Assembly: GCF_000012985.1 (NCBI RefSeq)
Contig: NC_007645.1
Coordinates: 4,114,581 to 4,178,580, forward strand
Direction: 5' to 3'
From: Hahella chejuensis KCTC 2396
Lineage (GTDB): Bacteria > Pseudomonadota > Gammaproteobacteria > Pseudomonadales > Oleiphilaceae
Length of the DNA stretch: 64,000 bases
Below are positions 38,485 to 41,044 of the stretch, in pieces (position 1 is the stretch's first letter; every line of letters begins with the position of its first letter). The notes below the pieces were generated by a model. The model saw nothing but the letters and a program-made list of their open reading frames with translations, had not been told where the DNA came from and did not search any database. A program made the position numbers and the translations under genes.

Positions 38485-40347
38485 ATGATTGCGCGATTCC
38501 AGAAATCATTAATCTTCCGAATGGGCGCCTTAATGATCGCCATGGTGTCACTGGCGATGATCACTATGCTGGCGTCATTCTTCATCTCCGAGTCAGCGGA
38601 AAAAGACGCGGAGGCGGTGAATATCGCCGGCTCCCTGCGCATGCAGAGCTACCGTATGCAGGCTCGGCTGCTGACCCTGGATACGCCGCCCTCAGATTTC
38701 GTAGCGGCGCTTACCCGCCAATTTGCCGAACGCATCGAAAACCCCGTGCTGGTGGCGGAAGCCATGAAAGACGACTCCTCGGAATTGCATCGACAATTCA
38801 TGCAGGTTCGTGAGAGTTGGGAGAACGATGTCAGCGGCTTTATCGCCACCTACGCCCACAATCCGGACCGCCGCGTTGCGGATCAATTGGGCGAAAAGAT
38901 CGACAAGTTTGTTGATGAAATAGACAACTTGGTGCAGCTCTATCAGATCCGCGCGGAGGATCGCATCGAGAACCTGCGTCTGATACAAATCAGCGCCCTG
39001 TTTCTCACCTTCGCCCTGGTCAGCTTCTCCCTGCTCATTCTCCATCATCATGTCGAGCTGCCTTTGCGCAGCCTGACGCAAAACGCACGCAAGATCGCCC
39101 GCGGCGACTTCAGCGACCGCCTGGAAGTAAAAAATGATGACGAGCTGGGCCTGCTGGCGGAGACGTTCAATCAGATGAGCGATGCGCTATCGGAGATGTA
39201 CGAATCTCTGGAGACACGGGTCAAAAATAAAACCCAGGCGCTAAAGCGCAGTAACGATTCCTTGAATTTTCTCTATCATCTGGCGCGGGAAGTCAGTGAG
39301 AAAACTCATGAGAATATTGATTTTCAGGCCTGGCTGGAGGAACTCACCAGTATTACCGCCGTCGGCGGCGTTGAACTTTGCCTGAAAACTCCCGAGGCGG
39401 TGATTCCCTATGAACACATCCGCAACGACTATATGACGGAGCTGCCTTCCTCCTGTCAGCGCCAGGAATGCGAAAAGTGCATGGTGGAAAAAGCCCAGGT
39501 GTGCCGGGACAATGACGAAGTGCAGGTGCGATATCCTCTGATCAAGGAAGGCGTCCAATATGGCGTGATAGTGTGCACGCTGCGCAACAGCCAATACCTG
39601 GAAAGTTGGCAGCATCAATTATTGCAATCCTTCTCCGACCAGGTCGCCGTGGCGCTCAGTTTGAAAAATCAGGGGGATCAGGAACGTCGGGTGTCTCTGA
39701 TGAACGAACGCAACGTCATCGCTCGGGAGCTACACGACTCATTGGCGCAGAGCCTCTCCTATCTAAAGATACAGGTCGCTCGCCTGACTCGCGCCTTGCA
39801 GTCAAAACAAGTGGAAGACGAACAGATCGACGGCATTACCGCAGAGCTCAAGGAAGGCATCACGTCCGCTTATCGGCAGTTGCGCGAGCTGCTCACTACA
39901 TTCCGTCTGAGCATTTCCGAGAAAGGTCTGCACGCAGCCATATTGCATACCGTTGAGCAACTGACCGAGCAAAGCACGAATGTCAAAATTGTGCTGGATT
40001 ATCGGGTGGAAGACATTCCCTTCTCCCCCAATGAAGAAATTCACTTGCTGCAGATCACACGGGAAGCGTTGCAAAACGCCGTGCGTCACTCTCAAGGAAA
40101 TCTGGTGACAGTCTCCCTGCATTCAGACCCTAAGAAAAAAGTCACCTTAGCCATTATCGACAATGGCGTCGGCATCCCAGAAGATCCAGAGAAGCTGAAT
40201 CATTACGGCCTCGCCATCATGCGCGAACGCACCCGCAATCTGCATGGCGAGCTAGCCATTCAACGCATACCGGAAGGCGGCACTGCCGTATTGTTCAGCT
40301 TTACTCCCAGCTACTTACAGGAGCGGAAAATCTCATACGCCGAATAA
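38485..40347 (+). CDS. narX: Nitrate/nitrite sensor histidine kinase NarX
   Basis: 620 residues; the ATG follows AAGGAG at 9 bp. Membrane helix 1 is at ~10-33. The periplasmic sensor begins with a P-box (AVNIAGSLRMQSYRMQARLL), helix 2 is at ~170-190, then a HAMP. The cytoplasmic central module has a Cys cluster (SCQRQECEKCMVEKAQVC), as in NarX proteins. HisKA_3 dimerisation with phospho-His417 (ARELHDSLAQSLSYLK) and an HATPase domain (EALQNAVRHS, DNGVGIP) follow. It phosphorylates NarL, encoded 7.4 kb away. It is divergent from narG. A GacA-type box begins on the base after its stop codon. Confidence 0.95.
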   Translation: MIARFQKSLIFRMGALMIAMVSLAMITMLASFFISESAEKDAEAVNIAGSLRMQSYRMQARLLTLDTPPSDFVAALTRQFAERIENPVLVAEAMKDDSSELHRQFMQVRESWENDVSGFIATYAHNPDRRVADQLGEKIDKFVDEIDNLVQLYQIRAEDRIENLRLIQISALFLTFALVSFSLLILHHHVELPLRSLTQNARKIARGDFSDRLEVKNDDELGLLAETFNQMSDALSEMYESLETRVKNKTQALKRSNDSLNFLYHLAREVSEKTHENIDFQAWLEELTSITAVGGVELCLKTPEAVIPYEHIRNDYMTELPSSCQRQECEKCMVEKAQVCRDNDEVQVRYPLIKEGVQYGVIVCTLRNSQYLESWQHQLLQSFSDQVAVALSLKNQGDQERRVSLMNERNVIARELHDSLAQSLSYLKIQVARLTRALQSKQVEDEQIDGITAELKEGITSAYRQLRELLTTFRLSISEKGLHAAILHTVEQLTEQSTNVKIVLDYRVEDIPFSPNEEIHLLQITREALQNAVRHSQGNLVTVSLHSDPKKKVTLAIIDNGVGIPEDPEKLNHYGLAIMRERTRNLHGELAIQRIPEGGTAVLFSFTPSYLQERKISYAE

Positions 40348-40365
40348 TGTAGGAAATATCTCACA
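40348..40365 (+). promoter_or_regulatory. GacA-type upstream activating sequence, first copy
   Basis: TGTAGG-AAATAT-CTCACA fits the GacA/UvrY/LetA box pattern TGTnnG-N6-CnnACA. It starts directly after the narX stop and 61 bp before a TAATAT -10 element (40409-40414), giving a box centred near -64, the position known for GacA-dependent sRNA genes. Confidence 0.82.
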
Positions 40366-40419
40366 CGCAATGCAGACATCGCGTCTATTCTCCCACCCCT
40401 CCCCACCCTAATATAGGTA

Positions 40420-40547
40420 CCAAGAGGATGCGCTGACACATAAGGACATGAAGCAAGGAAGCAACAAGGACGACCAACGCCGACGGAAATAGGCATCAAG
40501 GGAAGCATCTGACACGGAAGACGCAGCATGGAACGCTGCGTCTTTTT
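40420..40547 (+). ncRNA. CsrB/RsmY/RsmZ-type small RNA, first copy
   Basis: About 125 nt from a predicted start near 40420, just after TAATAT, to an intrinsic terminator (GACGCAGC 40520-40527, GCTGCGTC 40535-40542, then five T). Eight GGA motifs occur, several as AAGGA or ACGGA, including one inside the terminator loop (ATGGAAC). These are the marks of RNAs that sequester CsrA/RsmA. There is no coding potential. Exact ends are inferred; a homology name (Y or Z) cannot be given from sequence alone. Confidence 0.85.
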
Positions 40548-40664
40548 CTTTGTGGAACACGAACGCTCGGACGCGTCGACTGAATGGAGTCAGACAACAG
40601 CAGGTAAGGACACCGGGGCTGGATGGGATGAAGGATTGAGGGATGAACAGGCGGGACGCCAGGG
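40548..40664 (+). other. GGA-rich spacer between the two sRNA genes
   Basis: About nine further GGA triplets occur in this 117-bp spacer, but it has no GacA box, -10 element or terminator of its own. It may be a readthrough extension of the first RNA or a decayed third copy. Confidence 0.4.
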
Positions 40665-40682
40665 TGTACGAGATATCCTACA
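40665..40682 (+). promoter_or_regulatory. GacA-type upstream activating sequence, second copy
   Basis: TGTACG-AGATAT-CCTACA again fits TGTnnG-N6-CnnACA. A TAATAT element at 40726-40731 lies exactly 61 bp after the start of the box, the same spacing as in the first copy. The bases between also resemble the first copy (CAATGCAGAYAT, CGTCTAT, CTCCC). Confidence 0.82.
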
Positions 40683-40736
40683 AACAATGCAGATATGTCG
40701 TCTATCCTCCCTACCAAGCCATGGCTAATATAGCCA

Positions 40737-40862
40737 CAATGGATGCGAAAACGCGGCAGGGAAAGCCCGCAAAGGACTGCAGCAAGGATAGCAAAAGAGC
40801 CGCTGGAACCGGCAAAAGGAAGCATCAAATGGAAAAGGCGCAATATGGATATTGCGCTTTTT
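40737..40862 (+). ncRNA. CsrB/RsmY/RsmZ-type small RNA, second copy
   Basis: About 125 nt from a predicted start near 40737 to an intrinsic terminator (GCGCAAT 40838-40844, loop ATGGAT, ATTGCGC 40851-40857, then five T). Eight GGA motifs, one in the terminator loop. The body differs from the first copy but keeps matching pieces (GGACTGCAGCAAGGATAGCA against GGACATGAAGCAAGGAAGCA), so the pair arose by tandem duplication and diverged. Expected to titrate CsrA/RsmA under GacA control. Confidence 0.85.
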
Positions 40863-41044
40863 GTTTTTCTGGCCCCCCGCATTTTTAAACTCCCCCCGAT
40901 TCTTATCTCTTCACTGATCAGCCTACACACCAATTTCTTTTCACAACTCTCTGACATGCCTGCGAAATTTTATTTTAAAAACGCTATCGTATATCCTCGC
41001 TGGCTATTATTGAAAAACCTATCAGCTATAGAAAGCCCGCCATT

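Follow-up and report, generated by a model that had tools for sequence, protein, structure and literature searches.

Organization of the locus downstream of narX

The window analysed here is a 64,000-nt stretch of the genome of Hahella chejuensis KCTC 2396 (G000; 7,215,267 bp in a single contig), whose genus is known as a source of the red pigment prodigiosin. Directly 3' of the nitrate sensor kinase gene narX the + strand contains two adjacent modules (40348–40546 and 40665–40862), the second of which repeats the layout of the first 317 bp downstream (Table 1). The first-pass annotation had described for each module a Gac-type box, a TAATAT element 61 bp downstream of the box start, eight GGA triplets and an intrinsic terminator with GGA in its loop, and had placed the start of box 1 directly behind the last base of the narX stop codon; direct reading of the sequence confirmed both statements.

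Table 1. Features of the narX-module locus of H. chejuensis KCTC 2396 (positions in the window).
Feature	Position	Strand	Remarks
NarX/NarQ-type nitrate sensor kinase gene (narX)	38485–40347	+	
narX stop codon, TAA	40345–40347	+	read directly
Gac-type box 1, TGTAGGAAATATCTCACA, 18 bp	40348–40365	+	directly follows the narX stop codon; 0/18 sites vary in four genomes
TAATAT (−10-like), module 1	40409–40414	+	61 bp from box 1 start
RNA1, ~130 nt, 8 GGA	40418–40551	+	start predicted from the −10-like element
Intrinsic terminator 1	40516–40546	+	12 pairs, T run, loop ATGGAAC (GGA in loop)
Inter-module spacer, 113 nt	40552–40664	+	9 GGA, 0 TCC
Gac-type box 2, TGTACGAGATATCCTACA	40665–40682	+	2/18 sites vary in four genomes
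TAATAT (−10-like), module 2	40726–40731	+	61 bp from box 2 start
RNA2, ~128 nt, 8 GGA	40735–40864	+	predicted start
Intrinsic terminator 2	40833–40862	+	13 pairs, loop TGGA
gacA	~32 kb downstream		NF007018, 313.4 bits (cut-off 280)

The eight GGA triplets of 40418–40546 compare with a mean of 4.15 in dinucleotide-shuffled sequences (p 0.006) and the eight of 40735–40862 with a mean of 3.26 (p 0.0008). The ANGGA motif occurs seven times in each module, against shuffle means of 1.5 for module 1 and 1.2 for module 2 (0/5000 shuffles in each case). GGA density alone is not unique to the modules, since at least eight GGA per 125 nt are also found at nine other places in the window (counting the two modules, five on the + strand and six on the − strand). 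A terminator scan of a 1,401-bp region gave five terminator-like sites where 1.6 were expected; two of them are the module terminators, and one of the remaining three is the hairpin of the second module on the opposite strand. In the predicted folds 6/8 GGA triplets of module 1 and 4/8 of module 2 were mostly unpaired, and the folds were only mildly more stable than those of shuffled sequences (z −2.05 and −1.93, respectively). The consensus structure of the modules contained the terminator hairpin only, with no conserved array of GGA hairpins.

The covariance search with Rfam models, proposed in the first-pass annotation, came out negative: RsmY (RF00195) scored 13.7 of 57 bits at module 1 and CsrC (RF00084) 14 of 61 bits at the terminator of module 2, and the gathering score was reached by no Rfam family, neither in the 64,000-nt window nor in the modules of 13 related loci. 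When the scan was made permissive, unrelated hairpin families outscored RsmY and CsrC at the modules, the best of them with 28.6 bits. The best match of the RsmY model in the whole H. chejuensis genome lay in a further module described below (module 6, with 23.3 bits and E 0.0039), again short of the gathering score, and at E up to 10 the same model also matched 13 of 14 control genomes.

The module family and its promoter in Hahella and relatives

Modules were searched for by BLAST with the locus, by BLAST with module 4 and with a covariance model built from 11 modules. The rows of the model were taken from G000, G001 and G005 (module 1 of G001 among them), so matches in these three genomes arise partly by construction; Hahella sp. 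HN01 (G004) is nearly identical to the source genomes, and matches in Hahella CCB-MM4 (G003) and H. ganghwensis DSM 17046 (G006) are independent. H. chejuensis has six full-length modules in three clusters: m1/m2 behind narX, m4/m3, which flank a VIT/vWA gene and a small, putative sortase gene, and m5/m6 behind a WG-repeat gene. Three other model matches with E ≤ 0.1 in this genome were weak (18–20 bits), two being opposite-strand overlaps of modules. Seven modules each, with m6 doubled, were found in G001, G004 and G005, and three modules each above 80 bits in G003 and G006, together with one weaker match each, that of G003 without a box. G002 gave one match of 47.7 bits and one of 25.8 bits. 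In another genus of the same family (g7), 4/4 genomes contained three to five matches of 49–70 bits plus a few weaker ones. Altogether the model matched at E ≤ 0.1 in 23 of 58 genomes, and beyond those listed above many of the matches were weak or terminator-only.

Synteny links the m5/m6 place to single modules of G003 and G006: Pfam identifies the WG-repeat gene in G000 as well as in G003, and the neighbours in G006 are similar. This synteny points to the m5/m6 place as old in the genus, and to the place behind narX as newer, or lost in other lineages. Each of the seven Hahella genomes gave one csrA match and one gacA equivalog above the cut-off; the single csrA of H. chejuensis is located elsewhere in its genome. 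Right after module 3 of this genome a group II intron was noticed (Rfam D1–D4 matches, G000:C1 about 98853–99139), and in the other three close genomes module 3 is followed by short stretches unlike that of H. chejuensis.

The box in a loose form was too unspecific for a genome-wide finder (100 places in H. chejuensis vs 62 for the reversed control pattern) and was dropped, as was an earlier promoter pattern, whose spacer length was wrong for the modules and whose places were outnumbered by those of its control in 6/7 genomes. A narrower pattern, consisting of the box with the core AT.TC, 43 N and TAATAT with at most two mismatches, the core being learned from the modules, gave six places in H. 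chejuensis vs 0 for the control. Three of the six were exact and corresponded to modules 1, 2 and 5, one with two mismatches was module 4, and the remaining two had no model match. The boxes of m3 and m6 were too degenerate for the pattern even at two mismatches, which makes the reading of the modules as sponge RNA genes slightly less confident, and these two modules were left out of the promoter consensus. A general consensus is known for the Gac box, the upstream box of GacA/UvrY type. The consensus derived here from ten representative modules (m1, m2, m4 and m5 of H. chejuensis and six of G003/G006) reads.GTa.GA.AT.TC..ACA, followed by a linker with GA.AtgTaG.CTtT and then by CTAATAT.

Scanning a genome-contig collection with the exact pattern gave 56 matches in 55 stretches. 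In nine of them the 150 nt that follow contained at least seven GGA, a threshold chosen post hoc; the other 47 had fewer, two of those having six. All nine were from Gammaproteobacteria and six from Hahella, three of the six being the counterparts of m1, m2 and m5 in strain HN01. The scan links the box, its spacing and a predicted GGA-rich RNA without using the RNA sequence, with a core that is module-derived and with Hahella contributing six of the nine matches. The three non-Hahella matches lie in an Oleiphilus MAG, a Gammaproteobacteria MAG and a Coxiella-like endosymbiont, where box and TAATAT are followed by 7–11 GGA, and these are candidate sponge RNAs. The same box and spacing precede GGA-richer, CsrB-like RNA candidates in CCB-MM4 (G003:C1:437001) and H. 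ganghwensis (G006:C64:7252), for which a DNA search found no counterpart in H. chejuensis. Separately, 14 pattern matches (Gac-type palindromes) were observed in G002, mostly without a GGA-rich RNA downstream, and the regulator of such palindromes may control a larger set of genes in this species of Hahella.

Sequence constraint, ancestry of the modules and the spacer between them

Conservation in related genomes had been named beforehand in the first-pass annotation, and it was found in the four genomes with the locus (G000, G001, G004 and G005): the boxes and the RNA bodies are kept, all 16 GGA triplets are retained in 4/4 genomes and both TAATAT regions are invariant. Variable sites among these four amounted to 6/135 (4.4%) in RNA1 and 3/131 (2.3%) in RNA2, compared with 234/482 (48.5%) of the narX third codon positions in the part compared and 38/180 sites in the intergenic stretch after RNA2.

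The promoters of m1 and m2 were each other's nearest among the 12 compared (68%). Their RNA bodies were only 40% alike, that of m1 being closer to the remote paralogues m3 (66%) and m5 (64%), and ultrafast bootstrap values for the m1 + m2 grouping were 73 for the whole module, 67 for the promoter and 41 for the RNA. The common ancestry of the modules is clear; a local tandem duplication as their origin, proposed in the first-pass annotation together with later divergence, is likely, not proven.

The spacer between the modules proved about as conserved as RNA1, with 5/105 non-gap sites varying plus 8 gap columns (RNA1, 6/135; downstream intergenic, 32/174), and its nine GGA triplets are kept in 4/4 genomes. 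A relic of a third module was considered for the spacer and found unsupported, with no match by model or alignment (best p 0.06 of nine comparisons). Upon readthrough of terminator 1, 40420–40864 could form one CsrB-size RNA of 445 nt with 25 GGA besides the short RNAs. This agrees with the complete retention of the spacer GGA and the lack of TCC, a strand bias matched at only 0.008% of window positions, and with a GGA number above that of mononucleotide shuffles (p 0.03). The number is, however, not above that of dinucleotide shuffles (9 vs 6.8, p 0.13), terminator 1 looks strong (12 pairs and a T run), 8 spacer bases are missing in one genome, no module relic was detected, and the conservation could reflect regulatory DNA for module 2. 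We regard the long RNA as unlikely.

The nitrate sensor gene and the probable identity of the predicted RNAs

The product of the upstream gene shows PilJ, HAMP, HisKA_3 and HATPase_c domains. Its naming as narX held as far as the NarX/NarQ type is concerned, and its scores with the NarX (402 bits) and NarQ (433 bits) models are both below the curated cut-offs. A NarL equivalog is encoded nearby (331.8 bits, cut-off 250), as presumably are narGHJI and narK, which were read from translations. Homologues of narX are present in 7/7 Hahella genomes, with identities of 95–97% in three and 54–59% in three, and modules follow the gene in 4/7 (G000, G001, G004 and G005). None was seen behind narX in G002, G003 and G006 in the ~1 kb viewed, and there was no model match there either; the flank in G006 consists of N from ~0.9 kb. 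In G003 (G003:C151:126402–126543) and G006 (G006:C115:32979–33120) a module was observed ~14.3 kb from narX, not adjoining it.

Other modules likewise lie behind same-strand genes, at 17–24 nt (WG-repeat), 37–39 nt (GST), 61–72 nt (TrkH) and, for the gene preceding m3, 72 nt; m4 and its neighbour gene point in opposite directions, divergently. The first three gene types were identified by Pfam. The gene-to-box distances, worked out by hand, leave aside second modules within arrays, the long candidates of G003/G006 and the modules of g7. Lying at the 3' end of a gene is thus common among the modules, with narX showing the shortest of the distances measured.

A NarL-type heptamer, TACCCCT, was found in the module 1 promoter of 3/4 genomes and is absent from that of H. 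chejuensis. It occurred in 4/33 module promoters, three of these being module 1, with a chance expectation of 0.03 per 70 bp. NarL sites as the cause of the location behind narX are thus a weak candidate, which was set aside.

The location might still be functional, readthrough from narX (a 3'UTR sponge) and/or NarL acting on the promoters coupling nitrate sensing to CsrA. In line with this, box 1 abuts the narX stop codon and no + strand terminator was found between that stop and RNA1's own, so the readthrough envisaged in the first-pass annotation is physically possible; the arrangement is kept in all four close genomes, three of which carry the heptamer; and in P. aeruginosa NarL has been proposed to repress rsmZ and rsmY (PMC3603453, citing O'Callaghan 2011). 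On the other hand, narX occurs without a module behind it in G002, G003 and G006, modules are found at four other places 17–72 nt behind unrelated genes (WG-repeat, GST, TrkH and a putative sortase gene), the heptamer is missing in H. chejuensis and single heptamers arise by chance, and in PMC3603453 the authors' own read-out did not respond to a narL mutation. Since the narX link is lineage-specific and other modules lie behind unrelated genes, the case for a nitrate circuit is weak, and we consider such coupling improbable. Also improbable is a single composite sponge, in which the GacA-driven short RNA1 and RNA2 would be joined by products of readthrough from narX or past terminator 1: either the RNA of 445 nt and 25 GGA or a narX mRNA ending in a sponge. 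Transcription of the nitrate sensor gene would then itself titrate the one CsrA of a cell with six to seven predicted sponges. RsmA has been reported to act on denitrification (PMC11784011); together with the trans NarL precedent this makes a link between nitrate and Csr plausible, though it is not indicated by the sequence. That the pair lies beside the nitrate sensor gene probably reflects chance in the insertion of copies and not a new circuit.

A reading of the modules as duplicates that have decayed or are not expressed, as their many copies could suggest, is hardly credible given the strong constraint and the retention of all GGA.

The features held in common with the CsrB/RsmX/Y/Z family are GGA and ANGGA above chance, an intrinsic terminator and a host with csrA and gacA, to which, for m1 and m2, the sequence adds an upstream Gac box at a fixed distance from the −10; among the six paralogues, the boxes of m3 and m6 are degenerate. 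The modules are very probably two GacA-driven CsrA-sponge RNA genes of the RsmX/Y/Z-CsrB type, as predicted from these features. The CsrB/RsmZ-type reading of the first-pass annotation is thereby well supported by promoter, GGA, terminators, conservation, paralogues and csrA/gacA, with the Rfam models remaining below threshold. Following the known family (PMC7652899 and PMC7911923), phosphorylated GacA would bind the 18-bp box and activate the TAATAT promoter 61 bp downstream; an RNA of ~130 nt would be made, ending at the terminator hairpin; its GGA motifs, many predicted to be unpaired, would bind and sequester the single CsrA; and the CsrA targets would be freed from repression. The modules would have reached their place behind narX in one Hahella lineage, where narX transcripts may run into RNA1, which is not needed for function. 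The mechanism would be ordinary and the predicted RNAs are new as members of the family, while the copy number is unusual and the conserved GGA-rich spacer curious.

No earlier description of Hahella sponge RNAs (rsmZ) was found in the literature searched; CsrB-type RNAs were the subject of a genome scan in 2006, and an older prediction is possible. Hahella is absent from the main text of PMC5568370. The modules indicate that sponge-type RNAs exist which Rfam misses at threshold and some of which a box/−10 pattern finds, that module arrays differ in copy number between close genomes, and that the Hahella Csr system would have six to seven predicted sponge RNAs per CsrA.

In PMC7911923, neighbouring Rsm RNAs of ~110 nt with GacA boxes are described as rsmX-1/rsmX-2 of P. 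brassicacearum and rsmX-3/rsmX-4 of P. syringae, which the Hahella pair resembles. According to the same source, Pseudomonas Rsm RNAs carry 6–10 GGA, and P. syringae has as many as seven of them, a number cited there as correlating with several RsmA homologues (3–5). Two such RNAs are stated for E. coli and for most Pseudomonas (PMC7652899 and PMC7911923). Hahella departs from this link, because six to seven predicted sponges stand against one CsrA, and differs from Pseudomonas also in the pair behind narX and in scores below the Rfam RsmY threshold. In P. aeruginosa (PMC3603453) a link of RsmY/RsmZ to nitrate or low oxygen is possible as it is here, but NarL is thought to act there in trans, whereas here the genes are merely adjacent. 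The E. coli RNAs CsrB and CsrC (PMC7652899) are likewise GGA-rich sponges, driven there by the GacA-type regulator UvrY. Unlike CsrB with its 22 GGA, each Hahella RNA has ~130 nt and 8 GGA, and only the hypothetical readthrough form with 25 GGA would come near it.
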